A program made the position numbers and the translations under genes. A model generated the notes under the pieces. The model was not told where the DNA came from. It did no database searches and was given only the letters and a program-made list of their open reading frames with translations. Below are positions 43,020-64,000 of a DNA stretch of 64,000 nt, one piece after another (within the stretch, counting starts at the first letter, position 1; the number at the start of each line of letters is the position of its first letter). The stretch lies in the NCBI RefSeq assembly GCF_036237315.1, contig NZ_CP108356.1, positions 4,903,501 to 4,967,500 on the forward strand, written 5' to 3'. This DNA comes from Streptomyces sp. NBC_01351. GTDB taxonomy: Bacteria > Actinomycetota > Actinomycetes > Streptomycetales > Streptomycetaceae.

Positions 43020-46000
43020 GTGGCGGGCGAGTCCCCCGACAAGTCGGTAGATGAAGGAACGCCGGGGGCGGTGGAGTCCTCCGAGGGCCGCGACCCGAGG
43101 CTTTCGGTGCTTCGGCCGAGGGAGCCTGAGGGTGGGTCAGGAGTTTCCGCGGAAACCCGGGGTGAGGCGGCGTCCGAGCGTGCGGATGTGCCTGCGGCGG
43201 GTGAGGCGGCGTCTGAGCGTGCCGATGCGGATGCCGATGCGGATGCGGCTGCGGCGGAGGTCGAGGCCGGCGCTGACGCCGAGGCCGTGACGGAGGGCGC
43301 CTCCGAGGCCGAGGCCGGGGTTGCACCTGACGCCGTGACGGAGGCCGTACCCGAGGGCGCGTCCGAGCGTGCGGCTGCGGCGGAGGTCGAGGCCGGGGCT
43401 GATGCTGAGCCCGCCACCACGCCCGAGCCCGAGGCCGAGCCCGAGGTTGTGCCTGAGGTCGAGCCCGAGGTCGTGTCTGACGCTGTGACGGAGGCTCCGT
43501 CCGAGGTCGTGCCCGATGCCGCGTCCGAGCGTGCGTCCGACACGGCGTCCGAGGCTGCGTCCGACACGGCGTCCGAGCGTGTGTCCGGCGCTGTGTCCGA
43601 GCGCGCGTCCGAGGTTGCGCCCGACGCCGTGTCCGAGCGGGCGTCCGACGCGGTGGCCGCGCCCGCCGTCGTGACGGAAGCCGTGCCCGACGCCGTGACC
43701 GAGGCCGAGCCTGACGCCGGCGCCGGTGCCGGTGTCCCTGCTCCGGCCGCTGGGCGGGATCCGCTGAGGGAGGCGGTGGCGGCCTGGGTCGCCTCGGCCG
43801 ACGCCGGGTCCTCCGGACGGGTGGATCCGGATGCGGATGCCGCGTCTGTGGGAAGCGCCGAGCCCGCTTCGAGCCCGGCCGTCGCGACGGCCCCCGCTGC
43901 CCGGAAGTCGGATTCCGCTTCCGCCGTGGAGGCGGGCAAGCCCGCGTCGGACGCGGCCCCCGCTCCGGCGAAGCCCGCCTTCGACGAGCCGGTCGACAGC
44001 GAGCGCACGGCCGTGTTCCGGGTCGGGAAGCCTGCTTCCGCTTCTGCCGATGAAGCCGCCCCGGCCGTTCCCGAGCCTGCCGCCGACGAGCCGGTCGACA
44101 GTGAGCGCACGGCTGTGTTCCGTGCCGTGAAGCCGGGTTCCGTTTCGCCTGCGGGCGATGGCGCGGCCGGTGCTGCGAAGGCCGCTGCCGACGAGCCGGT
44201 CGACAGTGAGCGCACCGCCGTGTTCCGGGCGGTGAAGCCGGGTTCCGCCCCCGCCCCCGCCCCCGCCGCCCCGAAGCCGGCCGCCGACGAGTCGGCCGAC
44301 AGTGAGCGCACGGCGGTGTTCCGCGCTGTGAAGCCCGGTTCCGTTTCGCCTGCGGGCGATGGCGCGGCCGATGCTGCGAAGCCCGTCGCCGACGAGCCGG
44401 TGGACAGTGAGCGCACGGCTGTGTTCCGTGCCGTGAAGCCCGGTTCCGCTTCGCCCGCGCCGGCCGTCCCGAAGCCCCCCGCCGACGAGCCGGTCGACAG
44501 TGAGCGCACCGCCGTCTTCCGTGCCGTGAAGCCCGGTTCCGGTGTGGCGCCCGCCGCGCCGAAGAACAGTACGTTCGTACCGCTCCGCACCGACGCCCCC
44601 GGACAGCAGCAGGGGCAGGGGCAGGCGCCGGCGCCGGCGCCGGCGCAGCCGAAGCCCGCGCCGAGCGCACCCAAGCCCGCCGCGAAGGCCCCCGTACCGG
44701 CGCCCGCGGCGGACCGTGGTGAGCGGACCATGCAGCAGCCGCTGCCGCCCAAGCCGCCGCTCGACCTGCTCGCGGACCTCACGAACAATCCGCCCCCGCC
44801 GCCGAGCCCGATGCGCACCGCCGTCCGGCGGTTCAAGATCTACGCGCCCATCGTCGTACTGCTGGCGGTCATCCTCGCCGTCGTCCAGCTGGTGCGCCCG
44901 CTGCCCCAGCCGAAGCTCGTGATGACGGCGAACTCCTCGTACACCTTCGGCGGTTCGAAGCCGAACCTGCCGTGGCCCAGCGAGGGCCAGGCCTACATGG
45001 CCGCCGCCGGCCTCGGCACGCTCGGCCAGTTCGGCGAGCAGAAGCCCGTGCCGATCGCCAGCGTCACCAAGTCGATGACGGCGTACATCATCCTGCGCGA
45101 CCACCCCTTCAAGAAGGGGGAGAAGGGCGCGATGATCGACATCGACAAGACCGCCGAGACCGAGGGCCAGAAGGACAAGTCGGACAACGAGTCCACCCTC
45201 AACACGGTCAAGGAGGGCGACAAGATCTCCGAGTACGACGCGATCGCCGCCCTCATGATCCCGTCGGCCAACAACATCGCGCGGCTGCTCGCGCGCTGGG
45301 ACTCCGGTTCCCAGGAGGCGTTCGTCAAGAAGATGAACGACACCGCCAAGGAACTCGGCATGACCAACACCACCTACACCGACCCCTCGGGCCTGGACGC
45401 GACCACGGTCAGCACCGCCGAGGACCAGGTGAAGCTCGGGCTGAAGATCGTCGAGATCGAGGCCCTGGTCGACATCACCAAGAAGCCCAGCTGGGTCGAC
45501 CCGTCCGGCAAGACCTGGACCAACTGGAACCGCCTCGTCCCGTTCAACGACTCCCTCGGGATCAAGACCGGTACGACGACGAAGGCCGGCGGAAACCTCC
45601 TCTTCGCCGCCCAGAAGAAGATCGGCAACACCAACCAGCTGATCGTCGGAGCCGTCCTCGGCCAGCACAAGTCGCCGATCATCGACACCGTCATCGCGGC
45701 CAGCAAGCAGCTGATGCTCGCCACGCAGAAGGCCCTCGAAGGCGCGCCCGTCGTGAAGAAGGGCGAGGTTGTCGGCTACGTGGACGACGGGCTCGGCACC
45801 CGCACCCCGGTCGTGGCCACGGCCGACGTGCAGGCGGTCGGCTGGGCGTCGCTCACCGTCGAGGTGAAGCTCGCGGACGGGGGCGGCGTGCTCCCGCAGA
45901 CCGCGAAGGCCGGCACCGAGATCGGCGTGCTGACCGTGGGCGAGGGCGCCAGTCAGGTGAAGGTGCCGGTGGCGCTGCGGAACGACCTCGTCGCGCCGGG

Positions 46001-46031
46001 CATCGGCAGCAAGCTGACGCGCGTCGGCTGA
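43020..46031 (+). CDS. D-alanyl-D-alanine carboxypeptidase with long repeat-rich N-terminus
   Basis: This 1003-residue enzyme has a long acidic/Ala-rich cytoplasmic region (1 to about 600), one membrane helix (about 606-626) and an extracellular serine DD-peptidase domain. The active-site motifs are SVTK (Ser681, Lys684), SAN (749-751) and KTG (849-851). Six related units DEPVDSERTAVFRAVKPGS (first copy variant) occupy about nt 43984-44545. It trims peptidoglycan stem peptides. GGAGGAGG precedes the GTG at 43020. The upstream ECF-type promoter suggests envelope-stress control. Confidence 0.9.
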   Translation: MAGESPDKSVDEGTPGAVESSEGRDPRLSVLRPREPEGGSGVSAETRGEAASERADVPAAGEAASERADADADADAAAAEVEAGADAEAVTEGASEAEAGVAPDAVTEAVPEGASERAAAAEVEAGADAEPATTPEPEAEPEVVPEVEPEVVSDAVTEAPSEVVPDAASERASDTASEAASDTASERVSGAVSERASEVAPDAVSERASDAVAAPAVVTEAVPDAVTEAEPDAGAGAGVPAPAAGRDPLREAVAAWVASADAGSSGRVDPDADAASVGSAEPASSPAVATAPAARKSDSASAVEAGKPASDAAPAPAKPAFDEPVDSERTAVFRVGKPASASADEAAPAVPEPAADEPVDSERTAVFRAVKPGSVSPAGDGAAGAAKAAADEPVDSERTAVFRAVKPGSAPAPAPAAPKPAADESADSERTAVFRAVKPGSVSPAGDGAADAAKPVADEPVDSERTAVFRAVKPGSASPAPAVPKPPADEPVDSERTAVFRAVKPGSGVAPAAPKNSTFVPLRTDAPGQQQGQGQAPAPAPAQPKPAPSAPKPAAKAPVPAPAADRGERTMQQPLPPKPPLDLLADLTNNPPPPPSPMRTAVRRFKIYAPIVVLLAVILAVVQLVRPLPQPKLVMTANSSYTFGGSKPNLPWPSEGQAYMAAAGLGTLGQFGEQKPVPIASVTKSMTAYIILRDHPFKKGEKGAMIDIDKTAETEGQKDKSDNESTLNTVKEGDKISEYDAIAALMIPSANNIARLLARWDSGSQEAFVKKMNDTAKELGMTNTTYTDPSGLDATTVSTAEDQVKLGLKIVEIEALVDITKKPSWVDPSGKTWTNWNRLVPFNDSLGIKTGTTTKAGGNLLFAAQKKIGNTNQLIVGAVLGQHKSPIIDTVIAASKQLMLATQKALEGAPVVKKGEVVGYVDDGLGTRTPVVATADVQAVGWASLTVEVKLADGGGVLPQTAKAGTEIGVLTVGEGASQVKVPVALRNDLVAPGIGSKLTRVG

Positions 46032-51160: not shown

Positions 51161-52525
51161 TCAGCAGCCGCCGGAGACGGTGGCCGGGGTTCCGATGGTG
51201 AGGGTGGCCGGGGTGGCGCAGCAGCCGCCGCCGGATTCCCCGGCGGAGGCGGCCGCGGGCTCGTCGAAGAGGCCGGCGCCGCCGCAGACTCCGGTTTCGG
51301 GGAGGGTGAGTTCGACGCGTTCGGCGGCTTCCCGGTCGCCTGCGAGGTGGGCGGCGATGGAGCGGACCTGCTCGTAGCCGGTCATGGCGAGGAAGGTCGG
51401 GGCGCGGCCGTAGGACTTCATGCCGACGAGGTAGGCGTCCCTCTCCGGGTGGGAGAGCTCGCCGACGCCGTGCGGGTAAACGGTGCCGCAGGAGTGCTGG
51501 TTGGGGTCGATCAGCGGGGCCAGGGCAGTGGGGGCCTGGAGGCGCTCGTCGAGGCCGAGGCGGAGCTCGTCGAGGAAGGTGAGGTCGGGGCGGAGGCCGG
51601 TGAGGACGATGACCTCGTCGACCGGGTCGAGGCGCCGGCCGTCCTCGCCGACGAGGACCAGGCGGCCGTCGGTGTCGCGCTCGACGGCGTCGGTGCGGAA
51701 GCCGGTGACGGCGTCCGCGTGGCCGTCGTCCACGGCGGCCTTGGCGGCGAGGCCGAGGGCGCCGCGCGCGGGGAGCTGGTCCGCGGCGCCGCCGCCGAAG
51801 GTGGAGCCGGAGATGCCCCGGCGGAGGATCCAGACGGCATGGGTGCCGGATTCCTCCCTCGCGAGCTCGGCCAGGTGGGCGAGGGCGGTGAAGGCGGAGG
51901 CCCCGGAGCCGATGACGGCGGTGCGCTTGCCGGCGTAACGGGCGCGGACGGCCGGGTTCTTGAGGTCCGGGATGCGGTAGGTGATGCGGTCGGCCGCGTT
52001 CTTCTCGCCGAGGGCGGGGAGGCCGCTGCCGCCCGCCGGGCTCGGGGTGGACCAGGTGCCGGAGGCGTCGATGACGGCGCGGGCGAGGACGCGGGCCTCG
52101 CTGCCGTCGGCGGCGGTGTAGTGGATCACGAAGGGCTGGGCGTCGCGGTCGGCGTCGACGATGCGGTCGCGGCCGGTGCGCGAGACGCCGGTGACGGTCG
52201 CCCCGTAGCGGACCCGCCCGCCCAGGACGTCGGCCAGGGGCTGGAGGTAGCGCTCGGCCCAGTCGCCGCCCGAGGGGTAGGCGGCGGCGTCGGGCTTGAC
52301 CCAGCCGGTGGGGGCGAGGAGCTTCTCGGCCGCCGGGTCGACGACCTCGCCCCAGGTGGAGAAGAGCCGTACGTGGGCCCACTCGCGGACGGCGGAGCCT
52401 GCGGCCGGGCCCGCCTCCAGGACCAGCGGTTCCAGGCCGCGGTCGACGAGGTGGGCCGCGGCCGCGAGTCCGGCGGGTCCGGCCCCGATGACGACGACGG
52501 GCAGGGTCTCGATGGGTGCGGTCAC
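51161..52525 (-). CDS. FAD-dependent monooxygenase/oxidoreductase, ArsO-like
   Basis: This 454-residue flavoprotein has an N-terminal GxGxxG (VVVIGAGPAGLAAAAHL) and a second NADPH-binding site, GKRTAVIGSGASAFTAL. This is the two-dinucleotide layout of class B-like monooxygenases found near ArsR genes. The C-terminus has a Cys cluster (TGVCGGAGLF and GGGCCATP). The GTG at 52525 has GGGGAG six bases upstream. It diverges from an ArsR regulator across a 20-bp inverted repeat. Relatives are linked to metalloid detoxification; the substrate is inferred. Confidence 0.8.
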   Translation of the reverse strand: MTAPIETLPVVVIGAGPAGLAAAAHLVDRGLEPLVLEAGPAAGSAVREWAHVRLFSTWGEVVDPAAEKLLAPTGWVKPDAAAYPSGGDWAERYLQPLADVLGGRVRYGATVTGVSRTGRDRIVDADRDAQPFVIHYTAADGSEARVLARAVIDASGTWSTPSPAGGSGLPALGEKNAADRITYRIPDLKNPAVRARYAGKRTAVIGSGASAFTALAHLAELAREESGTHAVWILRRGISGSTFGGGAADQLPARGALGLAAKAAVDDGHADAVTGFRTDAVERDTDGRLVLVGEDGRRLDPVDEVIVLTGLRPDLTFLDELRLGLDERLQAPTALAPLIDPNQHSCGTVYPHGVGELSHPERDAYLVGMKSYGRAPTFLAMTGYEQVRSIAAHLAGDREAAERVELTLPETGVCGGAGLFDEPAAASAGESGGGCCATPATLTIGTPATVSGGC

Positions 52526-52540
52526 GGCAGGCTCCCCGTT

Positions 52541-52619
52541 GATTCGATGAATGTCGATGTGGTGTGCCATCAGAGTGGACCCTGAATCGACATCCGTCAA
52601 CATAGACATTCGTCGAATC
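52541..52619. promoter_or_regulatory. long inverted repeat, ArsR operator candidate
   Basis: GATTCGATGAATGTCGATGT (52541-52560) is mirrored with two mismatches at 52600-52619. It lies between the divergent FAD gene and arsR and is the probable site through which the ArsR protein controls both directions. Confidence 0.65.
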
Positions 52620-52637
52620 TTCTCGGATGATGGAGCC

Positions 52638-53006
52638 ATGTTCGCTGTGAAGACCGTGCTGCCGCTGCTGGAGCCCGAAGCCGCCGTGGCGCCGTGCTGC
52701 CCGCCCGTGACCGAACGCCCACTGACGGCCGAGGAGGCCGAGCGCAGTGCCGTGATGTTCAAGGCGCTCGGCGATCCGGTCCGGCTCCGCCTCTTCTCCC
52801 TGGTCGCCTCGCACGAGGGCGGCGAGGCGTGCGTGTGCGACATCTCGGACGTGGGCGTCTCGCAGCCGACCGTCTCCCACCACCTGAAGAAGCTCAAGGA
52901 GGCCGGACTGCTGTCCTCCGAGCGCAGGGGAACGTGGGTGTTCTACCGGGTCGAGCCCTCCGTGCTCGCCGCCATGGGGCAGCTCCTGAGCCGCTCCGCG
53001 ATCTGA
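52638..53006 (+). CDS. arsR: ArsR/SmtB family metalloregulator
   Basis: This 122-residue winged-helix regulator has FKALGDPVRLRLFSLVASHEGGEACVCDIS (in parts), VSQPTVSHHLKKLKEAGLLSS and the wing RRGTWVFYRVEP. The metal-responsive CVC lies in the alpha-3 region (ACVCD) and an extra CCPP near residue 18 may contribute ligands. It probably represses the divergent flavoprotein and itself until arsenic or antimony binds. GGAG precedes the ATG at 52638. Confidence 0.9.
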   Translation: MFAVKTVLPLLEPEAAVAPCCPPVTERPLTAEEAERSAVMFKALGDPVRLRLFSLVASHEGGEACVCDISDVGVSQPTVSHHLKKLKEAGLLSSERRGTWVFYRVEPSVLAAMGQLLSRSAI

Positions 53007-53443: not shown

Positions 53444-53479
53444 CTACGAACAGCGGGTCTCAGCCTGCGGAGTTTTCAT
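53444..53479 (-). CDS. mini-ORF MKTPQAETRCS in left inverted repeat
   Basis: This 11-codon minus-strand frame, ATG to TAG, encodes MKTPQAETRCS. It is supported by its near duplicate in the right repeat at 63954, which shares MKTPQAE exactly but has a different tail. The TAG aligns with a TGG (Trp) codon in the right copy, so the left copy may be truncated by a nonsense change. Reading through would give a further 21 codons. It could be a precursor peptide, leader peptide or relic. No ribosome site is clear; GGGG lies about nine bases upstream. Confidence 0.35.
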   Translation of the reverse strand: MKTPQAETRCS

Positions 53480-53615
53480 GTTTTCGACCCCTAGCTGACT
53501 CTGCTCCGTTGGCTGTGTACTCCTCACAAGTCGCAATGAAGCGGGGGATTGCGCCTGCCGTATCCGCAACGCCACCACCTACCACAAGCGTTTGCGTGAT
53601 GCCGGATTTCCAGCC
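53480..53615. repeat. left inverted repeat (promoter side) of the biosynthetic locus
   Basis: This matches, in inverse orientation, 63818-63953. Shared blocks include GGCTGGAAATCCG, GCGCAATCCCCCG, CTTGTGAGGAGTA and GGGGTCGAA, extending into the mini-ORFs. It lies upstream of the left mini-ORF and, on the other side, of the deaminase side, so it is probably a duplicated bidirectional promoter or regulatory region. Confidence 0.75.
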
Positions 53616-53659
53616 AGGACCTCGAGGTTAGTGACAGTTCGCCGATCAAAGGAACAGCC

Positions 53660-53794
53660 GTGACTGAGACGTTGTGCGGTCGGCGCGTTGGGCTCGTCCG
53701 GCCCGATCCGGGCCCTCCTGTCACCGCGGCACTCGACGGTCGGCCCCCTACGCGGCCACCAGCGCCCACACCCCGGTCGCGCCGGAGCACATAG
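53660..53794 (+). CDS. possible small ORF (44 aa)
   Basis: A GTG-started frame with AAGGA six bases upstream encodes a Pro/Arg-rich peptide beginning MTETLCGRRVGLVRPDPG. Composition is what random GC-rich sequence gives, so coding status is doubtful. It sits between the left repeat and the deaminase gene. The remaining stretch to 53955 shows nothing else. Confidence 0.2.
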   Translation: MTETLCGRRVGLVRPDPGPPVTAALDGRPPTRPPAPTPRSRRST

Positions 53795-53955
53795 TCGGTA
53801 CCTAGCCCCGACGACCTCCCGCGGCTGCCACCGAGAGCACTGATCTCGGGGCGGCGCCCGCGGGCCCCCACTGGTTCCCGGATCCACAGCCCGTGCGATG
53901 TCCCGCAAGGGCCGTGCAGCCGGGGGAATCCCCACCGTTTCCCAAAGGAGTCACC

Positions 53956-54459
53956 ATGACCGCGCACATCCAAGAGGCGAGCATCGACGAGCTCGAGCGC
54001 GCCTGGATGGACAAGGCGATCGAACTGGCCACGAACAGCGTGGCCAACGGCGGCGGCCCGTTCGGCGCCCTGGTCGCCAAGGACGGCAAGATCGTCGCGA
54101 TCGGCAACAACCAGGTCACCGCGAACCTGGACCCGACGGCGCACGCCGAGGTGACCGCCCTGCGCGCTGCCTGCAAGGAGCTGAACACCTTCTCGCTCGA
54201 GGGCTGCGTCCTCGTCACCTCCTGCGAGCCGTGTCCGATGTGCCTCTCCTCCGCGCTGTGGGCGAGAGTGGACCGGATCGTCTTCTCCGCCGACCGGGAC
54301 GACGCCGCGGTGGCCGGCTTCGACGACCGCAAGTTCTACGACCTCTTCGAGAAGCAGGCCACGTCGGCCTGGCCGATGTCGGTCGCGCAGCTGGACCTGC
54401 CGAACCGTACGGCGCCGTTCGACGCGTGGGTCGCCAAGACCGACCGCATCGACTACTGA
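53956..54459 (+). CDS. CDA-fold nucleoside/guanine deaminase
   Basis: This 167-residue zinc deaminase of the cytidine deaminase superfamily, guanine-deaminase-like subgroup, has the catalytic HAE (His63, Glu65) in PTAHAEVTALR and the zinc cysteines in PCPMC (Cys93, Cys96). AAAGGAG lies five bases before the ATG at 53956. It may deaminate guanine or a related aminated heterocycle. It points toward the minus-strand biosynthetic operon, separated by a strong hairpin, and could supply or salvage a precursor or be an unrelated neighbour. Confidence 0.85.
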   Translation: MTAHIQEASIDELERAWMDKAIELATNSVANGGGPFGALVAKDGKIVAIGNNQVTANLDPTAHAEVTALRAACKELNTFSLEGCVLVTSCEPCPMCLSSALWARVDRIVFSADRDDAAVAGFDDRKFYDLFEKQATSAWPMSVAQLDLPNRTAPFDAWVAKTDRIDY

Positions 54460-54551
54460 GAACCGGTTCCACCGGTCGGTCCGGTTCGCCGCGCCTGACA
54501 GCGAGCGAACCGGACGGCCCGCGAGGACGCGGTCGCCGCGCCCACGTACCG

Positions 54552-54592
54552 ACAGCAGACCACCCGGCTCGAAGAGCCGGGTGGTCTGCTGT
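54552..54592. terminator. bidirectional hairpin terminator
   Basis: A perfect 19-bp stem, ACAGCAGACCACCCGGCTC and its complement, has a three-base GAA loop and lies between the convergent deaminase and carbamoyltransferase genes. Confidence 0.85.
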
Positions 54593-54609
54593 GCGACGGG
54601 TGTGGAACG

Positions 54610-56412
54610 TCACGCGGCCGGGGCGGCCTTCCTGACGAGGTAGTCGCCGAGCACCACGTAATCGATCTCCGTGCCGAGGAAGCAGTTCAGCGCGTCGGCC
54701 GGCGTGCACACGATCGGCTCGCCCGCCACGTTGAACGAGGTGTTGATCAGGCAGGGAACGTCGGTCAGCGCCGTGAACCGGCGCAGCAGGGCCGCCAGCC
54801 GCGGGGTGTCCTCATCGGTGAGCGTCTGCACCCTGGAGGTGCCGTCCACGTGCGTCGCGCCCGGGAGCACGTCGCGGAACTCCGCCTTGATCGGGAACAC
54901 GAAGGTCATGTACGGCGAACGCGTCTTGCGGCCCATCTCGAAGACCTTCGGGGCCTCCGATTCGAGCACGAGCGGCGCGAACGGGCGGAACGGCTCGCGG
55001 TGCTTGACCTTGGTGTTGATGATGTCCTTGATGTCCGGGAAGCTCGGGTTCGCAAGGATGCTGCGGTGACCCAGTGCTCGGGGGCCGTGCTCCAGCCGTC
55101 CCTCGAACCAGCCGATGACGACCTTCTCGGTGAGCAGCTTCGCCACCTGGTCGACGACCTCCTCGTCGCCGCCCAGCTTCCGCCACTCCACCCGGCCCTC
55201 GAACTCGCGCAGGGCCTGCTCGATCGCGGTCTCGTCGTACTCCGGTCCGAGGTACGGGGTGACGCGCGGCGCGGGCTTGTCCCTGCCGGCACCGTCCGCG
55301 TGGTTGATCCAGGCGTGCGCCGCGGCGCCGATGGTGATGCCCGTGTCGCTCGCGCCGAAGCTCACTTCCATGTCCTCGAACCGCGACCCCTCGAACAGCG
55401 GGGTGTTGTTGAGGCAGTTGAGCGCCACGCCGCCCTCGAACAGCAGGTGGTCCAGATCCGACTTGCCCTCCAGCGCGCGGATCTGGTGGCGGGTGACGAC
55501 GTTCAGCATCTCCTGCGCCGCGGCGGCGACCCGGGCCTGGTACTCCAGGGTCTCCTCGCGCGGGCCGAAGTACTCCTCGAAGACCGGATCGAGGCTGAGC
55601 GGGTTGTCGGTCTCCAGGGGCCGGGTGAAGGTGTAGCGCCCGTCCTCCTCCAGCCGGACCAACCGCTCCAGGAACGGGTTCGACGCCGGGGGCTCGGCGT
55701 ATCCGGCCAGGCCCATCACCTTGTACTCGTCGTTGTTCGGCACGAAGCCCAGGAACCGGGTGATCGCGCTGAACAGGATGCCGATCGAGTACTCCGAGCC
55801 GATCGCGGTCTCCTCGAAGACCCGGATCCGGCCGTCGCGGATCTCGCCCATCAGCGTTGAGAACCGCTCCGCCCGGCCGTCGCTGACGAGGAACGCGGAG
55901 TCCTTCATCCCGGCCAGGTAGTAGCCGGTCATGGCGTGCGCGAGGTGGTGGGGTACGAACACCACCTTGGCCGGGTCCGGGGTGAAGCCCGTGCGCGCGG
56001 CGAAGTCGGCGAGGATGGCCTCGGGGCCGACGATCTCGTCGAACAGCCGGCCCATGCTGTGGACGAGGTACTCCCGCGACGCGGGCTCCATCGGGGCCCG
56101 CGCGATGTCCGCCAGCAGCTGTTCCTGGAGCTCGGCGGACCAGTTCCAGGGAATGGCCAGCAGGTCGATGTCCGAGAACTCGAGACCGGCCTGTTCGAGG
56201 CACCACTGCACCGAGTTGAACGGGAAGTCGGTGGTCTTCTTCTCCCGGTTGAGCCGCTCCTCCTCCACGGCGGCGACCAGCTCGCCGTCCACCAGCAGCG
56301 ACGCACCCGCATCGTGGCCCATGAGGTAGTGCTTGTTGATGCCGACCGCGCCGAGGTTCTCGGAGAAGAACTCGGAGATGCGCGTGAAGCCGTTGCACCC
56401 CAGGACAATCAT
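54610..56412 (-). CDS. O-carbamoyltransferase (NodU/CmcH/TobZ family)
   Basis: This 600-residue carbamoyltransferase transfers carbamoyl from carbamoyl phosphate via carbamoyladenylate to a hydroxyl. The N-terminal Kae1-like domain has GHDAGASLLVDG and the metal-binding HHLAHA (155-160). The C-terminal YrdC-like domain has EHGPRALGHRSILANP, REPFRPFAP and TSFNVAGEPIVCTPADAL. The start is the ATG with AAGGA upstream. It is the last gene of the minus-strand operon, with 18 bases to the preceding FAD gene. It probably decorates the pathway product as a late tailoring step. Confidence 0.93.
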   Translation of the reverse strand: MIVLGCNGFTRISEFFSENLGAVGINKHYLMGHDAGASLLVDGELVAAVEEERLNREKKTTDFPFNSVQWCLEQAGLEFSDIDLLAIPWNWSAELQEQLLADIARAPMEPASREYLVHSMGRLFDEIVGPEAILADFAARTGFTPDPAKVVFVPHHLAHAMTGYYLAGMKDSAFLVSDGRAERFSTLMGEIRDGRIRVFEETAIGSEYSIGILFSAITRFLGFVPNNDEYKVMGLAGYAEPPASNPFLERLVRLEEDGRYTFTRPLETDNPLSLDPVFEEYFGPREETLEYQARVAAAAQEMLNVVTRHQIRALEGKSDLDHLLFEGGVALNCLNNTPLFEGSRFEDMEVSFGASDTGITIGAAAHAWINHADGAGRDKPAPRVTPYLGPEYDETAIEQALREFEGRVEWRKLGGDEEVVDQVAKLLTEKVVIGWFEGRLEHGPRALGHRSILANPSFPDIKDIINTKVKHREPFRPFAPLVLESEAPKVFEMGRKTRSPYMTFVFPIKAEFRDVLPGATHVDGTSRVQTLTDEDTPRLAALLRRFTALTDVPCLINTSFNVAGEPIVCTPADALNCFLGTEIDYVVLGDYLVRKAAPAA

Positions 56413-56430
56413 GAGAGTTTCCTTTCTTGG

Positions 56431-57555
56431 CTACGCGGACTCGGCCGAGGCGCCGGGAAGGCGAGCGGTGGTGAGGCCCGCCGTGTCGGTCCAGGGCTGC
56501 TTGCCGAGTACGAGGTCGCGGATGATCTCGCCGGCGGCGGGTGCCTGGCACAGGCCCTGGCCGGAGAACCCCGCCGCGTAGAGGAAGGGGCGTGAGGGAT
56601 CGCGGCCGATGAACGCCATCCCGTCCGGGCTGATGTCGAGGTTCCCGCTCCACCCGTGATCGAGGTGGTTGTCGGCGAGCTCCGGGAAGGTGGAGCCGAG
56701 GTGGTGCGACACCCGCCGCAGCCAGTCCTCCCTCGATTCGTCCGCGCCGGGGCGGCCCATCCCGACGAGGATGCGGTCTCCCCAGCTACGGATCCGCAGG
56801 CTGGACGGGTGCATGGTCATCGGCAGCGTGGTCTGCGCGGCACCGGCGGGCGTGTCGGTGAGCAGCATCTCGATGGGGTACGTGGCCGCGGGAAGGCGTA
56901 CGTCGGCCATGGCAGCGACCTCGCCCGCCCAGGGGCCGGCCGCGCAGACGACGGTGTCGGCGCGGATGGTGCCCGCGGGCGTGTGGACCCGCCCGTCGGG
57001 GTCGATGCCGGTGACGGGTGTCTGCGTGTGCAGCACGGCGCCGGCCTTCCGGGCGGCGTCGGCGTAGCCGCGCACGATGGCGGCGGGGTCGCAGGCGTAG
57101 GCCTCCGGAACCCAGGCCGCCGCCAGGATGGTCCCCTCGTCGACCAGCGGGTTGAGCCGGGCCGCCTCGGCGGCGGTCACGAGCTCGACGTCCACTCCCG
57201 CGGCCCGCTGGGCGGCTTCGGTGCGCCGGTACTCCTCCACCTGCTGTTCCTCGGTGAACAGCACCAGCAGGCCGATGCGCTCCAGGCCGAGGTCGGTTCC
57301 GGTCCGCTCGGCGAAGGAGTGGTACGCCTCCATGCTGCGGGTGGCCAGGCTGCTGATCAGCGTGTTGCCGGGGAAGTAGGTGCGTACGACGCCCGCGGTG
57401 GTTCCGGACGATCCGGATCCGAGCTCGCCACGTTCCAGCAGGACGGTGCCGACGCCGGCTTCGGCGAGATGGCACGCGATCGAGGTGCCGATGACACCTC
57501 CGCCGATGACGAGGACCTCCGTGTGGTCGGGCAGCCGGTCGGGCAGCCCGCTCAT
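56431..57555 (-). CDS. DAO-family FAD-dependent oxidoreductase
   Basis: This 374-residue flavoenzyme of the D-amino acid oxidase/glycine oxidase family has an N-terminal Rossmann motif VLVIGGGVIGTSIACHLAEAG. The C-terminal substrate-domain landmarks are DGMAFIGRDPSRP and YAAGFSGQGLCQAPAAGE. It typically oxidises a C-N bond of an amine or amino acid. The ATG overlaps the stop of the upstream cyclophilin-like gene by four bases (ATGA). In this locus it could dehydrogenate a cyclic amine formed by that enzyme, which is inference. Confidence 0.88.
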   Translation of the reverse strand: MSGLPDRLPDHTEVLVIGGGVIGTSIACHLAEAGVGTVLLERGELGSGSSGTTAGVVRTYFPGNTLISSLATRSMEAYHSFAERTGTDLGLERIGLLVLFTEEQQVEEYRRTEAAQRAAGVDVELVTAAEAARLNPLVDEGTILAAAWVPEAYACDPAAIVRGYADAARKAGAVLHTQTPVTGIDPDGRVHTPAGTIRADTVVCAAGPWAGEVAAMADVRLPAATYPIEMLLTDTPAGAAQTTLPMTMHPSSLRIRSWGDRILVGMGRPGADESREDWLRRVSHHLGSTFPELADNHLDHGWSGNLDISPDGMAFIGRDPSRPFLYAAGFSGQGLCQAPAAGEIIRDLVLGKQPWTDTAGLTTARLPGASAESA

Positions 57556-58553
57556 GCCTGCCGACCGGCTTCCGCGGTGGCGGGCTGCTGGCGCAGGTGG
57601 TCGCCGGCGTCCCAGGGGAACAGGTGCAGGTTCCAGCCGCCGAGGGTGTTGATGTAGAGGGCCATCTGGCCGGCCACGGCGAGGAAGTCCTCGCGGTCGA
57701 GCTGGTCGAGGCAGGCCAGGAAGCGCTGGGTGAAGTGCCACAGCTTCTCCAGGCCGCAGTAGCCCAGGAACTCGGCGGGGACGCCGACGAGGAGGCGCGC
57801 CATGTGGTGCAGGGATTCGATCGGCATGTCCTGGACGGCGCCGCGGATGAGGCCGCCGTAGGAGGCGTACCCGAGGGGGCGGGTCTCGCCGTTGACGAAC
57901 AGCAGCGTGGGCAGGACCGTCTCGAAGCTGCCGGCCCCGGACGGGATCCGCGACTGGTGCATGTCGGCGAGCTCGACCGGTTCGGTCAGCCAGATCCGCT
58001 CGGTCTCGGCGTGCACGTCGTGCAGGAGCCGGTCCGCGTCGGCGTTGGTGGCGGTCAGGCGGGGGATGTGGTGGCCGCCCGCCGAACCGGCCTTGCGGAC
58101 CTCGACGTGGACCGGCTTCTTGGTCGAGTAGACCGAGTCCCATACGGCCCGGCCGGCCTCGTTCAGAGCCGGCAGGTCCTCTTCCCGGATCCGGCCGATG
58201 GGCGCCGCAGGCATGGGTTCGGTCAACTCGCCGTACTTGATGCCCAGATGCTGCAGTCCGGACAGGAACACCGTCCCGTTCGGCGCCTCGCGCCGGTCGG
58301 CGATCCGGTGCGCGGGGTGGGTGTACAGCAGCTCGTGGATCGGAGCCATGTGGTAGAGGTGCTCGCCCGCCACCAGCGCGTGCCCCTGCAGGCTCTGGTA
58401 GGGCAGCGACTTCCACAGGACGTCGACCAGTTCCGGGTTGCGGTCGTCGAGTTCCGCGGTGACGGTGATCCCCAGATCCGGCCAGGCTATCTCGATGCTC
58501 CGGGCGGAGACGTCGGACGAGGAATTCACTTCGTGCGGCAACTGCTGCGTCAA
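57552..58553 (-). CDS. cyclophilin-like/cucumopine-synthase-type protein, probable Pictet-Spenglerase (copy 2)
   Basis: This 333-residue protein has an N-terminal DUF3830 cyclophilin-like domain (about 18-130, IAWPDLGITVTAELDDRNPE, LWKSLPYQSLQGHALVAG, GIKYGELTEP) and a C-terminal helical bundle (about 220-315, GVPAEFLGYCGLEKLWHF). This architecture is that of McbB/KslB-like Pictet-Spenglerases and cucumopine synthase. Glu109 or Glu112 may be the catalytic acid. The start is TTG with AAGGA six bases upstream, a context shared with the paralog at 63773. It would join an aldehyde or oxo acid to an aromatic amine such as Trp or His. Confidence 0.7.
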   Translation of the reverse strand: MTQQLPHEVNSSSDVSARSIEIAWPDLGITVTAELDDRNPELVDVLWKSLPYQSLQGHALVAGEHLYHMAPIHELLYTHPAHRIADRREAPNGTVFLSGLQHLGIKYGELTEPMPAAPIGRIREEDLPALNEAGRAVWDSVYSTKKPVHVEVRKAGSAGGHHIPRLTATNADADRLLHDVHAETERIWLTEPVELADMHQSRIPSGAGSFETVLPTLLFVNGETRPLGYASYGGLIRGAVQDMPIESLHHMARLLVGVPAEFLGYCGLEKLWHFTQRFLACLDQLDREDFLAVAGQMALYINTLGGWNLHLFPWDAGDHLRQQPATAEAGRQA

Positions 58554-58631
58554 GGTATTTCCTTAGTTCGGAGAGATGGGCGAATACAAACCGTCACGCG
58601 GGCCGGGATTTCCCCGGCCCGCGGGCCGGGG

Positions 58632-59096
58632 CTACTTCTGTGCGAAGTGGTCCCGCATGGAATCGGCCTGCTTCGCCATCAAGGAGATGATCGTCTCGAC
58701 GACTTCGGTGTCGGCGTCCTCGGCGATCGTGAGCTCGCGCGTCCAGTCGAAGAAGCAGCGGCTCGGGTCGTTGGTGATCTCGCGGATCCGAATGGTGGCG
58801 ACGTAGGCGTCGACACCCGTCGCCGGCGCGATGGCGCGGTAGCTCTGGGACCGCAGCACCTCGTCGCGGCCGGCCACCTCCTGCTGCACGAGGCCGTCGT
58901 TGAAGGCGAGGGTGAAGTCATAACGTGCCGGGACGCGTTCGGCGGATCCGCCCTCGGCCCAGCCCACGTTCTTCGCCCCGTCGCCGGACACGATCGCCAC
59001 GACCTTCAGGGCGTCGCGGACCACGGCCCAGACGGCGTCCGGGGTGGCGTCGATGATGGTCGAGTCGTACATGGTGTGCTTCCGCTGAATTGCCAT
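58632..59096 (-). CDS. SRPBCC (Bet v1-like) family protein
   Basis: This 154-residue protein has the helix-grip fold pattern: an early strand with STIIDATPDAVWAVVRDA, a central sheet (YDFTLAFNDGLVQQEV) and a long C-terminal helix (TEVVETIISLMAKQADSMRDHF). Such proteins bind hydrophobic ligands and act as cyclases, dehydratases or carriers. Plant Bet v1-type proteins include the Pictet-Spenglerase norcoclaurine synthase, an analogy only. The ATG at 59096 has GGAG five bases upstream. Its operon position suggests it acts on the pathway intermediate. Confidence 0.75.
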   Translation of the reverse strand: MAIQRKHTMYDSTIIDATPDAVWAVVRDALKVVAIVSGDGAKNVGWAEGGSAERVPARYDFTLAFNDGLVQQEVAGRDEVLRSQSYRAIAPATGVDAYVATIRIREITNDPSRCFFDWTRELTIAEDADTEVVETIISLMAKQADSMRDHFAQK

Positions 59097-59196
59097 CAGA
59101 ACTCCAATTCGGGCAAGGGAAAACCCTCGCTTCGTCAATGAGTGAGGAAGGGAGTGAGGAAGGGATTGGGGGAACGAGTGAAGAACGGGCGGTGGT

Positions 59197-60261
59197 TCAG
59201 GCGGCCGGAATCGTCGACGCGTCGATCACGAAGCGGTAGCGGACGTCAGAGGTCAGCACCCGCTCGTACGCCTCGTTGATCTGTTCGCCGGAGACGACCT
59301 CGATGTCAGGGCCCAGGTCGTGCTCCGCGCAGAAATCCAGCATTTCCTGGGTTTCGGCGATACCGCCGATCAGCGAGCCGGCCAGCGTTTTGCGGCCGGC
59401 CATCAGGGAGAACAGCATCACGCTGCTCGGGGCCGACGGGGCGCCGACGTTCACCAGCGTGCCGTTCGTCCTGAGCAGCGACAGGTACGCGTCGAGTTCG
59501 AGGTTGGCCGACACCGTGCTGATGATCAGGTCGAAGGCGCCGGCCAGCCGCTCGAACGTCGCCGGGTCGGAGGTGGCGTGGAAGTGGTCCGCGCCCAGCC
59601 GCTCCCCGTCGTCCTTCTTGCCCAGGGTCCGCGAGAGCACCGTCACCTCGGCACCCATGGCGTGCGCGATCTTGACACCCATGTGGCCGAGGCCGCCCAG
59701 GCCGACGACGGCGACCTTCTTGCCGGGGCCGGCGTTCCAGTGGACCAGCGGGGAGTACAGGGTGATGCCGGCGCACAGCAGCGGCGCGGCCTCGGCGAGC
59801 GGGATGCCCTCGGGGATGCGCAGCACGAAGTTCTCGTCGACGACGATGTGGGTGGAGTAGCCGCCGTAGGTGGGACCGCCGTCGGGGCCGGGCGAGTTGT
59901 ACGTCTCCACGGCGCCGTTCGCGCAGAACTGCTCCTGGCCGCCCCTGCAGTTGTCGCAGTTCCGGCAGGAGTCCACCATGCAGCCGACGCCGACCCGGTC
60001 ACCCGTGCGGTGCTGGGTGACGCCCGGGCCCACGGCGGTGACCACACCGGCGATCTCATGGCCCGGAACCATCGGGAAGACGCCGCCGCCCATGTCGTCG
60101 CGGGCCCGGTGGATGTCGGTGTGGCAGATCCCCGTGTACTTGATCTCTATCAGCACGTCGTGCTCGCCCACCGGCCGCCGCGGGATCGTGCCGCGCTCCA
60201 GCCTGGAGCCGGCTGCGGGGACGAGGTAGGCGGGCACGGAGGTGACGGTCTGTGCGGTCAT
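59197..60261 (-). CDS. zinc-dependent alcohol dehydrogenase (YahK/CAD-like)
   Basis: This 354-residue medium-chain dehydrogenase has the catalytic zinc ligands in TGICHTDIH (Cys46) and PGHE (67-69), and four structural-zinc cysteines, Cys99, 102, 105 and 113. The NAD(P) fold is [14 protein letters not shown]. It is nearest the cinnamyl alcohol/aldehyde reductase type. In the operon it could interconvert an alcohol and the aldehyde made by the LuxC-like reductase. The start is the ATG at 60261 with AGGAAG upstream. Confidence 0.93.
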
Positions 60262-60342
60262 GTCCTTCTTCCTGGAGGATCAACGGACTGGGTGCGGGCC
60301 GTAGGCCGTACTCCGCACGACATCCGCGCAGGTCAGCGCAGG

Positions 60343-61704
60343 TCAGCGCAGGACGGTCTTGGTACGCATGAGGAAGTCGGCGAGATAGCCGTCGTGCGGG
60401 AGGCCGGGCGCCATCCACGGGGTCGGATGGTCACCGATGTAGACGTTGCCGATCGTCGGCTCGGCCACCAGGGCGTCGATCAGGTCCTCGTCGGTGGTGA
60501 CGGCCGTGAGGACGAGCGTGCCCCGCAGGGGCCGGATCCCGGCTTCGCGGTCCCACGGTGCGACCCATGCGCACGGGAAGCCCAGTTCCATGCCGAGCTG
60601 CGCGTCGAAGGGGCTGTCGAGCTGGTGCACGGCCGGCCGCAGCACGGCGGTGCCGTCGCCGAGGTCGTCGAGGATCCCGTCGCCACCGAGCCACGCCTTG
60701 GTGTCGGCCGCCCGCTGGCGAAGTCCTTCCTCCCACCGGCGGGCGGGGCCGATCGGCATGACGGGCAGCACCGCCCGATCGTCCGACGGGGGCAGGCTGG
60801 GCAGCGCGGCGAGGCGTTCGGCGAGCGCTGCCGCCACCGGGGTGGGGTCGCCTTCGACGAGTACGCCGGTGGCGTTGACGCAGCCGACGCCCCCACCGCT
60901 GCTGATCGACTCCACGATGGTGTCGACGATCGGCTCCCAGTCGGCTTCGGCGGTGATGAGCACCTTGGAGCGCCCGGGGCCCTGCGGCAGGATGCGCGGA
61001 TCGTCCGCGTACTTGCGCATGACGTCGTCACCGCCGTAGACGATTCCGAGGTCCGCGTGCCGGAGGATCTCGTCGGCCGCCTGGTGGTCGGTGGGCAGCA
61101 GGACGATCCGGTCCTCGCCGAATCCGGCCTCGCGCAGGGCGGTGACCAACCGGTGCGGCGTGAAGGCCTCGCGCCGGGACGGACGCACGGCGACCCGGTA
61201 GCCGAGCGCGACGGCGTCCAGCCAACCTTGGTGCACCGACGGGTGGTTGCCCGCGGCGTGGACGGCGAACACGTCGCCCCGACGGGTCCACACCGCCCTG
61301 CCGCCACGGGTCAGCGGATCGCGCCACGAATCGACCGCGCCGGCCGGCCGTGCGTTCTGCATGCTGTGGTGGATCCGCTCGGCGGCCCGCGCGATGTCGG
61401 CGGTGGCGCCTCGTACCGTCGTGATCGGTGTGCCGGTGGCGGCGCTGACGGTGCGCTGGTACTCCTCCGCCGTCAGTCCCGCGACCCGCTGCGTGGCGAA
61501 CGCCCGGCCCGCCTCGGCGAGCGCCGCGATCCGTGCGTCGAGGGGCATCACCGGTGCGCGGTGCAGTGCTTTCATCGCGCGGGTGACGTAGAGCGGCGGT
61601 ACGAGACTCAGGGTCGCGATCGGGTTTCCGGCGAGGTCCGGGATCGTCTCCTGCCGCCGCGATCGATAGGGGCCGTTCGGGCCGAGAGCGTCGAGGAACA
61701 GCAT
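60343..61704 (-). CDS. LuxC/GriC-like acyl reductase
   Basis: This 453-residue ALDH-superfamily acyl reductase of the LuxC family has its nucleophilic Cys275 in SSGGGVGCVNATG. Other matching stretches are AAGNHPSVHQGWLDAVALGY and LGIVYGGDD. In grixazone biosynthesis the homologous pair GriC and GriD reduces an aryl carboxylic acid to its aldehyde. The start ATG overlaps the LuxE-like stop by one base (TAATG). The two must work together to make an aldehyde. Confidence 0.88.
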   Translation of the reverse strand: MLFLDALGPNGPYRSRRQETIPDLAGNPIATLSLVPPLYVTRAMKALHRAPVMPLDARIAALAEAGRAFATQRVAGLTAEEYQRTVSAATGTPITTVRGATADIARAAERIHHSMQNARPAGAVDSWRDPLTRGGRAVWTRRGDVFAVHAAGNHPSVHQGWLDAVALGYRVAVRPSRREAFTPHRLVTALREAGFGEDRIVLLPTDHQAADEILRHADLGIVYGGDDVMRKYADDPRILPQGPGRSKVLITAEADWEPIVDTIVESISSGGGVGCVNATGVLVEGDPTPVAAALAERLAALPSLPPSDDRAVLPVMPIGPARRWEEGLRQRAADTKAWLGGDGILDDLGDGTAVLRPAVHQLDSPFDAQLGMELGFPCAWVAPWDREAGIRPLRGTLVLTAVTTDEDLIDALVAEPTIGNVYIGDHPTPWMAPGLPHDGYLADFLMRTKTVLR

Positions 61705-62762
61705 TAGTACACGCCCTCGATCACCGGCGCACCGCTGAAGGACTCCACGGGAGCGACGTCGGCGAGCGAGTCGCCGAAACCGTCCGTGGCCGGTGCGATC
61801 CGGGTGGCGAAGTCCCGTTCGGCGTTGTTGACCAGCAACGCCGTTCGGCTCATGTGGTGGACGATCACCTGCCCGCGTTCGCCGTACGGAACGACCCGGC
61901 CGGTTTCGGGGTCGACCACCCGGAAGGTGGTGTACGGGGCGAAGGAGTCGAACACGCACGGCTCGTCGGCTCCGAGGCCGGGGCGCTCCACCGATGTCCC
62001 CAGCATCATGGTGCTGCCGTAGCCCCCGACGAGCTTGGTGTTCGGGAACACCTCGTCGCGCAGCAGATCCCGGGTGTCGGCGTCCAGATGCGTACCGCCC
62101 CAGATGATCGTGCGGACCTTGCGGTTCACCAGCTCGACCAGGTCATCGCGCTGGGCGAGGCGGTCCAGCATCGGCGGAGTGGCGAAGAGCACGCCCACGT
62201 CCTGGCTGGACAGGACGAAACCGATCTGCTCGATGAGGTGATCGGTGTAGGCGCTGGCCATGTCCATGTGGCCGTCCGCGAGCAGCTTCTTCACCCATCG
62301 CGGGTCCAGATCGATGGCGAAGTTCAGCCCGCCCCGAAGCGCCGCGGTGTCGACCGCCATGGCTCCGACGTTGTGCGGCCCGGTGGGAACGGCACTGAGC
62401 CAGTCGACGTTCCGGGGCACACCGTGTTCGTCGAGTCGCTCGCTGAACCACTCGACGCTGCGCCGGTGCCATTCCGCGGCGAACACCACGCGCTTGGGCT
62501 CCCCGGTGGTGCCACCGCTTTCGTAGACGCTGGCCTCGAGGCCGTCGCCGTAGCCCTGGGGAATCAGATCGCGGACCGCGACGTCGCGCAGTTCGTCCAC
62601 CACATTGGGAAACAAGCCGAGATCGTCGAAATCACGTACATCGGTCAACGGGTCAAAGTCGAGCGTCTCGGCGCGCTTCAGCCAGAACGGCGATCCGGTC
62701 TCCGGGCTGAAGTGCCACCGCATCATCTTCCGAACGAACTCTTCGCCCTTTTGTTCAGCCAT
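61704..62762 (-). CDS. LuxE/GriD-like acyl-activating enzyme
   Basis: This 352-residue ANL-superfamily enzyme has the AMP-binding P-loop YESGGTTGEPK (80-90) and the later GGTHLDADTRDLL and GYGSTMMLGTS. It is compact like LuxE acyl-protein synthetases and lacks the C-terminal domain of full ligases. It would adenylate a carboxylic acid and pass the acyl group to the LuxC-like partner for reduction. The ATG at 62762 has AGAGGA six bases upstream. It sits one base before the LuxC-like gene. Confidence 0.87.
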   Translation of the reverse strand: MAEQKGEEFVRKMMRWHFSPETGSPFWLKRAETLDFDPLTDVRDFDDLGLFPNVVDELRDVAVRDLIPQGYGDGLEASVYESGGTTGEPKRVVFAAEWHRRSVEWFSERLDEHGVPRNVDWLSAVPTGPHNVGAMAVDTAALRGGLNFAIDLDPRWVKKLLADGHMDMASAYTDHLIEQIGFVLSSQDVGVLFATPPMLDRLAQRDDLVELVNRKVRTIIWGGTHLDADTRDLLRDEVFPNTKLVGGYGSTMMLGTSVERPGLGADEPCVFDSFAPYTTFRVVDPETGRVVPYGERGQVIVHHMSRTALLVNNAERDFATRIAPATDGFGDSLADVAPVESFSGAPVIEGVY

Positions 62763-62813
62763 GAACTGTCCTCTCGAAAAAGTCTTCCGGGGCAGGGCAC
62801 TCGTCACTTCTCG

Positions 62814-63773
62814 CTACTGGGGAACGGGCTGCCGGCGCAGCTGGTCCGCGGCGTCCCAGGGGAAGAGGTGAAGGTTCCAGGCACCCAGGCAGTTGATGTA
62901 GAGGGCCATCTGGCTCGCCACCGCGAGGAAGTCCTCGCGGTCGAGCTCGTCGAGGCAGGCCAGTACGCGCTCGGTGAAGGCCCACAGCTTCTCCAGGCCG
63001 CAGTAGCCCAGGAACTCGGCCGGGACGCCGATCAGCAGGCGTGCCATCTGGCGCAGGGAGTCCATCGGCATGTTCGCGACCGCGGCGCGGACCAGGCCGC
63101 CGTAGGTGGCGTAGCCGAGCGGGCGGGTCTCGCCGTTGACGAACAGGAGGGTGGGAAGAACCGTCTCGTAGCTGCCGGCTCCGGAAGGGATCAGGCCTTC
63201 GTGCAGGTCGGCGAGCTCGGGCGGTGCGGTCAGCCAGATCCGCTCGGTCTCCGCGTGCAGATCGTGGATCAGCTGCTGCGCATCGGAGTTCGCGGCGGTC
63301 AGCCGGGGAATGCGGTGTCCGCCCGCGGTGCCGGCCTTGCGGACCTCCACCAGGATCTGCTTCTTCGTCGCGTAGACGGCGTCCCAGACCGCGGCCCCGG
63401 CCTCCAGCAGGGCCGGCATGTCCTCCTGCCGGATCCGGCCCACGGGCGAAGCCGGCATCGGCTCGCTCAACTCGCCGTACTTGATGCCCAGATGCTGCAG
63501 CCCGGAGCAGAAGACCGTCCCGTCGGGCGCATCGCGCCGGTCGGCGATCTTGTGAGTGGCGTGCAGGTGCAGCAGCGAGGGGATCGGTACGTGGTGGTAC
63601 AGGTGCTGTCCGGCGACCAGCGCGTGTCCCTGCAGACTCCGATAGGGCAAGGACTCCCACAGGGCATCTGCCAACTCAGGGTTGCGGTCATCGAGTTCCG
63701 CGGTGACGGTGATGCCCAGATCAGGCCAGGAAATCTCGATGTGCCGAGCGGATAACGTCGTGGTCGTGGACAA
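62814..63773 (-). CDS. cyclophilin-like/cucumopine-synthase-type protein, probable Pictet-Spenglerase (copy 1)
   Basis: This 319-residue protein is a full-length paralog of the gene at 57552-58553, with the same cyclophilin-like N-terminus (ISWPDLGITVTAELDDRNPE, GIKYGELSEP) and helical C-terminus (AEFLGYCGLEKLWAFTERV). It is the first gene of the minus-strand operon. It also begins at TTG, with AAGGAAAAACC before it, nearly the same as its paralog's AAGGAAATACC. Either both enzymes act on different substrates or they form a heteromer. McbB/KslB-type Pictet-Spengler activity is inferred from family. Confidence 0.7.
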   Translation of the reverse strand: MSTTTTLSARHIEISWPDLGITVTAELDDRNPELADALWESLPYRSLQGHALVAGQHLYHHVPIPSLLHLHATHKIADRRDAPDGTVFCSGLQHLGIKYGELSEPMPASPVGRIRQEDMPALLEAGAAVWDAVYATKKQILVEVRKAGTAGGHRIPRLTAANSDAQQLIHDLHAETERIWLTAPPELADLHEGLIPSGAGSYETVLPTLLFVNGETRPLGYATYGGLVRAAVANMPMDSLRQMARLLIGVPAEFLGYCGLEKLWAFTERVLACLDELDREDFLAVASQMALYINCLGAWNLHLFPWDAADQLRRQPVPQ

Positions 63774-63817
63774 GGTTTTTCCTTCGTTCGGCGAGATGTC
63801 GGGAGCATCGGGAGTCC

Positions 63818-63953
63818 GGCTGGAAATCCGACATCAGGCGAACGCCTTTCAGACACAACGGCGTTGCAGACACGGCACGCGCAATCCCCCGATTAGCTGC
63901 GGCTTGTGAGGAGTAGACAGGGAATCGAGCCGGGGCAGGTAGGGGTCGAAGAC
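63818..63953. repeat. right inverted repeat of the biosynthetic locus
   Basis: This is the inverted match of 53480-53615 and lies between the divergent first operon gene and the right mini-ORF. It probably carries the promoter of the operon on one strand and of the mini-ORF on the other. Confidence 0.75.
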
Positions 63954-64000
63954 ATGAAAACTCCGCAGGCTGAGGCCTGCTCTTCGTGGATTCCTACGAG
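63954..64000 (+). CDS. partial mini-ORF MKTPQAEACSSWIPT...
   Basis: This open frame runs off the end of the window after 15 codons plus two bases. It begins MKTPQAE, identical to the left-copy peptide, then ACSSWIPT. The alignment with the left copy continues base by base past the left stop, where Trp replaces TAG. A conserved start with a diverging tail containing Cys and Trp is the pattern of a RiPP-type precursor, but a leader peptide of a following gene cannot be excluded without the sequence beyond 64000. Confidence 0.45.
   Translation, partial: MKTPQAEACSSWIPT

Follow-up and report, generated by a model that had tools for sequence, protein, structure and literature searches.

Introduction

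The closest described system to the locus treated here is the gene cluster proposed for pyridindolol. Masses and ultraviolet data matching pyridindolol were reported in 2021 for extracts of Streptomyces sp. ID38640, and a candidate cluster was proposed in this strain and in S. alboverticillatus, comprising genes for a Pictet-Spenglerase (PS), a FAD oxidoreductase, a 352 aa AMP ligase, a 453 aa aldehyde dehydrogenase, a histidine phosphatase and an F420 enzyme (PMC7955054). In its section on this cluster, the same paper calls the pathway unstudied and reports that the antiSMASH output did not show the cluster (PMC7955054). Here we describe an eight-gene operon within a 64,000-nucleotide stretch of the 8.9 Mb genome of Streptomyces sp. 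NBC_01351, the whole of which is hereafter called the window. As judged from its gene content, the operon is a hybrid of a pyridindolol-like gene set, termed type A, and a second set with a carbamoyltransferase gene, termed type B, and it may direct the formation of a carbamoylated pyridindolol-like beta-carboline.

Results

An operon with two McbB-type Pictet-Spenglerases

The operon occupies positions 54610-63773 on the minus strand and holds, in the order given by an initial annotation of this DNA, genes for a PS (PS1), a LuxE-like and a LuxC-like protein, a zinc alcohol dehydrogenase (ADH), an SRPBCC protein, a second PS (PS2), a DAO-family flavoenzyme and an O-carbamoyltransferase (CarbT). 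Number, strand and order of the genes are upheld by the open reading frames (ORFs), all eight of which have a single stop each and a GC content at third codon positions of 0.86-0.96. Overlaps of 1-4 bases, annotated at several junctions, do exist, but at two of the seven (1 and 4 bases), the remaining five being gaps of 18, 51, 78, 81 and 100 bases. Pfam searches of the eight proteins returned Cucumopine_C (PS1 and PS2), AMP-binding, Aldedh, zinc ADH, Polyketide_cyc2, DAO and both carbamoyltransferase domains. In NCBIfam, PS1, PS2 and the SRPBCC protein gave no match, and the other five proteins had none above cut-off among the matches listed; Rfam, at its gathering threshold, yielded a single tRNA and nothing else in the window. 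No nonribosomal peptide synthetase (NRPS) or polyketide synthase (PKS) gene is found among the operon genes. The locus is a real one, was for the most part read correctly at the outset and is made of known parts.

PS1 (319 aa; 62814..63773, minus strand) starts at a TTG codon behind an AAGGA-type ribosome-binding site and matches PF18631 with E 1.8e-47 and 161.5 bits, while PS2 (333 aa from a TTG; 57552..58553, minus strand), for which a later GTG at 58529 is a possible alternative start, matches with E 2e-43 and 148.4 bits, the cut-off being 27. Over residues 9-309, PS1 aligned with PDB 3x27 at E 3.4e-90, an entry named 'Cucumopine synthase' which we take to be McbB. The McbB positions R72, S83, H87 and E97 show no substitution in any of 27 aligned sequences, among them PS1, PS2, McbB and a third copy from the same genome (PS3), with the McbB numbering offset chosen to fit R72, H87 and E97, presumably the site residues numbered in the McbB structure work. 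Two of the 27 rows (L013 and L048) belong to the same genome; L011, L065 and L066, which are fragments or duplicates, had been excluded beforehand. By family and site residues, PS1 and PS2 are therefore McbB-type Pictet-Spenglerases, which bears out the annotation of two PS-like paralogs, and the checked residues of the McbB catalytic site, whose loss would have spoken against it, are kept in both. PS3 is intact (C1:4385636-4386565) and belongs to a complete type B cluster, L043, which lies on the same contig as the operon and has its own phosphatase gene. With L043 located elsewhere in the genome, the strain has three intact PS genes, whose products are 74.5-76.5% identical to each other (76.5% for PS1 and PS2). 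A protein database search returned 314 PS relatives at E 0.001, the named ones among the 120 matches listed stemming mostly from Streptomyces, Nocardia, Nonomuraea and Actinomadura; at E 1e-20, a relative occurred in 7 of 384 sampled genomes of the class.

Two types of related loci in Streptomyces

At E 1e-10, a PS relative was detected in 24 of 295 Streptomyces genomes, sixteen of them with type B loci (the present genome included), three with type A only, three with a 50% identical relative and two (G006 and G040) with fragments only. The loci fetched span 13-20 kb, and the linkage counts given here hold for those stretches; genes were called by a simple codon-bias script, which missed some that tblastn showed. 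L011 shares its genome with L044, and L013 with L048, each being counted once as a locus. Type A comprises five distinct loci (L012, L045, L047, L048 and L176) with the layout PS, DAO, LuxE, LuxC, followed on the opposite strand by genes for a histidine-phosphatase-family protein and an F420 oxidoreductase. Type B comprises 17 loci (L043, L044, L046, L049-L061 and L164) with PS, DAO, carbamoyltransferase, SRPBCC and phosphatase genes; their PS proteins are 74-82% identical to PS1, and LuxC and LuxE are absent from the fetched stretch in 17 of 17. Subsets of the operon genes hence recur together at 22 other loci, each of which, whether type A or type B, has one DAO gene and a gene of the histidine phosphatase family.

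A close CarbT homolog (at least 73% identity, the next best being 59%) is encoded in 17 of the 295 genomes. A PS accompanies it in 16 of these, compared with 8 of the 278 genomes that lack it (Fisher p 1e-19, uncorrected for kinship); the exception, G017, is a draft in which the start of CarbT is 644 bases away from the end of a contig, and of the set only CarbT and the deaminase gene were found there, on separate contigs. Together with the recurrence at 22 loci, this co-occurrence indicates that these genes do not go together by mere chance. The annotated oxidase and carbamoyltransferase, and the natural-product-like character of the locus, are likewise supported.

A third neighbourhood (L062, L063 and L064) was also seen, in which the gene of a 50% identical PS lies between two DAO genes, with twelve more gene families common to all three loci.

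The operon as a hybrid of both types

The type A gene types PS, DAO, LuxE and LuxC are all present in the window, in an order that differs from type A, and so is the type B set of PS, DAO, CarbT and SRPBCC, along with an upstream element described below. L049 and L051 share with the window the order SRPBCC-PS-DAO-CarbT and a divergent guanine-deaminase-like gene beyond it. In contrast to the window, type B loci such as L043, L049 and L051 carry a phosphatase gene and have, in the fetched stretch, no LuxE, LuxC or ADH homolog and no second PS. We read the operon as an L049-type set to which PS1, LuxE, LuxC and ADH have been added. LuxC matches at E 1e-215 or better were found in 5 of 390 Streptomyces genomes, namely at four ordinary type A loci and here, and of the four of these that belong to the 295 sampled, the present genome alone combines a close LuxC with a close CarbT. 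The hybrid may nevertheless not be unique, given that a close LuxC (88%) and ADH (90%) of Streptomyces sp. NPDC091267 are among the matches listed.

The LuxE-like protein (352 aa; 61704..62762, minus strand; PF00501 E 5.6e-13 in a longer GTG form) aligns from its first residue with type A LuxE at 81-84% identity, and the LuxC-like aldehyde dehydrogenase, its acid reductase partner (453 aa; 60343..61704, minus strand; PF00171), is 80-82% identical to type A LuxC. Their genes overlap by 1 base. LuxC homologs at E 1e-60 occur in 64 of the 295 genomes, mostly without this PS, and at the 30 loci fetched from these 64 genomes LuxE adjoins LuxC every time (one LuxE being partial). The annotated acid-reductase pair is thereby supported as an acyl-adenylate/aldehyde-dehydrogenase unit; as for the labels LuxE- and LuxC-like, Pfam at E 0.01 gives AMP-binding and Aldedh rather than the LuxE and LuxC families, PF05893 being additionally present in a few LuxC relatives among the matches listed. 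The ADH (354 aa; 59197..60261, minus strand; ADH_N/ADH_zinc_N) is Ahr-like, its best NCBIfam entry among the matches listed being NF047908 AldhRedAhr with 291 bits, under the cut-off of 470. When 8000 bases were searched against a plasmid collection, 280 records matched part of the query and none covered 80%. By their coordinates, most of the plasmid matches listed span ADH alone and one, from Burkholderia ubonensis, the LuxE/LuxC pair, while the best, from Nonomuraea gerenzanensis, covers PS2-DAO.

The DAO-family flavoenzyme (374 aa; 56431..57555, minus strand; PF01266 E 1.8e-66), with sarcosine and glycine oxidases as its best solved matches, shows 80-81% identity to type A and 58-76% to type B. 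CarbT (600 aa; 54610..56412, minus strand; PF02543 and PF16861) aligns at full length, residues 1-595, with PDB 7xb6 'Carbamoyltransferase' (E 3.9e-213). The SRPBCC protein (154 aa; 58632..59096, minus strand; PF10604 E 2e-7 for a 168 aa form) has the conserved start MAIQRKHTMY, an alternative longer TTG form reaching 59138, and is 61-83% identical to 17 type B homologs. Among the loci fetched, close relatives of CarbT and SRPBCC occur only in type B. In trees, CarbT groups with L044, L049, L050 and L051 (100/100) and SRPBCC with L049 and L051 (98/96), and PS2 and PS1 group weakly with L049/L051 (91/73) and L046 (90/85), respectively. The predicted structure of the SRPBCC protein has a START fold (predicted local distance difference test score 84, the five models ranging over 40-84); a sequence search of solved structures gave no credible relative, and in the structure comparison plant PYL receptors and ZhuI score equally, so that no specific function is singled out.

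An upstream element, a PS relic and a guanine-deaminase-like gene

The noncoding DNA in front of PS1 includes a segment of about 100 bases that is also found ahead of many type B PS genes. With up to one mismatch allowed, a 24-base pattern from it, TTTCATGTNTTCNACNCCTNNCTG, has three matches in the whole genome, all of them exact, compared with none for the reversed control: one ahead of PS1 (63936..63959, minus strand), one ahead of L043 (C1:4385544-4385567) and one at 53474..53497 on the plus strand, ahead of a PS relic and a guanine-deaminase-like gene. Only one copy stands ahead of the whole eight-gene run. In a scan of 42 loci above 6,000 bases with a looser pattern of up to two mismatches, each of the 17 type B loci had the element once (in L058 with two mismatches) and the five type A loci lacked it; it was also present at both decayed loci and beside the G017 deaminase gene. 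Its position in L049 and L051 is in front of the deaminase gene. As the patterns were derived from these sequences, the counts per locus are descriptive, and the whole-genome count with its control is the stronger test. A separate candidate history, in which PS1 arrived with LuxC and LuxE from a type A cluster, is unlikely, as PS1 bears this type B element and the four type A PS proteins in the tree form a clade of their own.

The relic (53446..53736, plus strand) corresponds to the leader and start of a former PS gene; it is 73% identical to 63691-63987 of the minus strand and aligns with the PS1 leader and with the relic of G006. The guanine-deaminase-like gene (53893..54459, plus strand) encodes a PF00383 protein matching the guanine deaminase PDB 1wkq at E 1.1e-40. 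The range first annotated, which begins at 53444, does contain the operon, but its start lies outside it, and the two plus-strand features there went unmentioned. The deaminase-like gene is present in all 18 genomes that have a type B PS or relic and in 24 of the 277 other Streptomyces genomes, among which several copies adjoin xanthine dehydrogenase genes. It could be a mere neighbour or a pathway partner of the type B cluster.

PS relics near guanine-deaminase-like genes were observed in four genomes, namely the present one, G006, G040 and G038 (L066, L065 and L089), which suggests repeated cluster loss at this site. Genes for xanthine dehydrogenase (XdhC, large and small) adjoin the type B cluster and the guanine-deaminase-like gene at L049, L051, L052, L053, L056, L059, L060 and L061.

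Elsewhere in the window, 42852-46031 on the plus strand encodes a large protein which, read from the sequence by eye, has a D-Ala-D-Ala-carboxypeptidase-like C-terminal half and, N-terminally, a long region rich in proline and alanine in which SERTAVFR occurs six times. At 51161-53006, the ORF list read by eye shows a plus-strand gene for an ArsR-like regulator divergent to a minus-strand FAD oxidoreductase gene.

Discussion

We propose that the hybrid operon produces a carbamoylated pyridindolol-like beta-carboline, a reading to which we assign a probability of about 50%, and from these comparisons we infer its substrates, step order and product and any role of the deaminase. PS1, PS2 or both would form a tetrahydro-beta-carboline-3-carboxylic acid by condensation of L-tryptophan with a C3 (or C4) aldose phosphate, and the phosphate of this acid would be removed by a phosphatase from outside the window, such as the one in L043. 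That a phosphatase gene accompanies all 22 related loci suggests a phosphorylated aldehyde. The DAO flavoenzyme would oxidise the C ring; LuxE would adenylate the C3 acid, after which LuxC would form the aldehyde and ADH the 3-hydroxymethyl group, so that a pyridindolol-like skeleton results; CarbT would carbamoylate a hydroxyl; and SRPBCC may contribute some binding or cyclisation step. By analogy with the proposal for pyridindolol, it is more likely that LuxE and LuxC reduce the C3 acid after ring closure, because the type A loci match the proposed pyridindolol cluster in kind, order and size of the genes.

Several points weigh against this reading. The pyridindolol cluster is its authors' hypothesis, with no gene deletion in the section describing it (PMC7955054), and its agreement with the type A loci in gene types, order and protein sizes is one of description, not of sequence, within what that section gives. 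The four type A PS proteins form a clade of their own (100/99) without PS1 and PS2, and in the DAO tree, to which a distant paralog (L055, 18391) contributed a long branch, the window DAO falls among type B rows (86/92) with type A unresolved, though its identity peaks to type A. No phosphatase homolog lies in the window or in the next 23 kb past its end; the F420 enzyme has a single 28% match at 18 kb in the window and none in those 23 kb. The phosphatase would act on a sugar phosphate, while the one such protein scanned, from a related locus, has NCBIfam matches that are all below cut-off.

Possible, yet rather doubtful, is that two products are made by sets that are merely joined, with PS1-LuxE-LuxC-ADH and a shared DAO yielding a pyridindolol-type alcohol and SRPBCC-PS2-DAO-CarbT a carbamoylated carboline acid. 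Comparable sets do stand alone at other loci, two PS genes with 76.5% identical products have been retained, and the SRPBCC-PS2-DAO-CarbT half matches L049/L051 in order; on the other hand, the window has a single DAO, where each set type has one at the 22 loci, so at least that step would be shared, and a single element precedes the whole gene run. That the carbamate serves as a leaving group, with CarbT activating a side-chain hydroxyl and SRPBCC closing a ring or eliminating, so that the end product lacks the carbamate, seems to us distinctly unlikely; against it, the SRPBCC fold is common to many binding proteins, plant PYL receptors scoring equally.

GriC/GriD offer an analogy for the LuxC/LuxE pair as an aryl acid reductase. 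On this analogy the initial annotation had placed the reduction of an acid to an aldehyde before condensation with an aromatic amine; on such a route PS1 or PS2 would join an aryl aldehyde made by LuxE/LuxC to an amino acid, and the many LuxC homologs with an adjacent LuxE in genomes that mostly lack this PS would fit such a separate supply. We nonetheless consider this order very improbable, and LuxC/LuxE an unlikely aldehyde supplier: the 17 type B loci, with PS proteins so similar to PS1, have no LuxC/LuxE in the fetched stretch, the phosphatase gene found at all 22 loci would be needless for an aryl aldehyde, and the pyridindolol proposal puts the reduction on the carboxyl group, leaving the step order open in the section concerned (PMC7955054). 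As regards the amine, the StnK2 enzyme of streptonigrin reportedly acts on a tryptophan derivative. The Pfam family of PS1 and PS2 is named for cucumopine synthase, which acts on histidine, and a substrate such as histidine or another amine in place of tryptophan would give a spinacine-like product. We regard this as the least probable of the readings considered, as the best solved match is 3x27 (E 3e-90) and McbB is described as acting on tryptophan. Of the two products named by the initial annotation, the carbamoylated carboline is thus favoured and spinacine is less likely.

Returning to the carbamoylated pyridindolol-like product, we advance a wider proposal tentatively, with the odds somewhat against it: type B would be a rather widespread, as yet undescribed beta-carboline pathway of Streptomyces, run under a private element that also governs the guanine deaminase and thereby tying the alkaloid to purine breakdown, and the window would fuse type B with the pyridindolol acid-reductase set to give an unreported carbamoylated pyridindolol-type product. 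Irrespective of this, bacterial beta-carboline clusters of a second type, marked by a carbamoyltransferase, are defined, and this type is intact in 16 of the 295 Streptomyces genomes sampled, the present one included. With no NRPS or PKS in the operon, and with antiSMASH not showing the related pyridindolol cluster, such loci may be overlooked. In the hybrid operon the contribution of either half can be tested cleanly, the upstream element is a starting point in the search for its regulator, and gene deletion becomes a possible test of the pyridindolol pathway. The enzymes belong to known families; their combination here seems not to be known.

Comparison with known systems

The searches made brought up no characterised cluster that has all of these genes, in line with the initial annotation, but its PS, DAO, LuxE and LuxC do match the pyridindolol cluster as proposed in the section cited (PMC7955054). 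The reductase half is therefore not new in kind, whereas neither the carbamoyl set nor the joining of the two sets was found described in the open-access literature searched, which, for the terms used, yielded no paper joining Pictet-Spenglerase, Streptomyces and carbamoyltransferase. The lengths of the window LuxE and LuxC equal those of the pyridindolol ligase and aldehyde dehydrogenase, but the published cluster table lists no second PS, ADH, SRPBCC or carbamoyltransferase, unlike the window, and does include two genes that the window lacks, for a histidine phosphatase and for an F420 enzyme (PMC7955054). In the same source, two pyridindolol proteins show 49% and 39% identity to StnK2 and StnP2 of streptonigrin, the PS and FAD oxidoreductase types (PMC7955054). 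McbB (3x27) of the marinacarboline pathway shares its PS family and the checked site residues with PS1 and PS2; the mcb set of mcbA/B/C, with oxaloacetaldehyde as the aldehyde and McbA as an amide synthetase, is unlike the window. CarbT has both Pfam carbamoyltransferase domains in common with 7xb6, the decarbamoylnovobiocin carbamoyltransferase 9s2t, GdmN and TobZ, and differs from them in its genomic context, a carboline operon. Like two-protein aryl acid reductases of the GriC/GriD kind, to which the likeness is one of analogy, the window has adjacent LuxC-like and LuxE-like partners.

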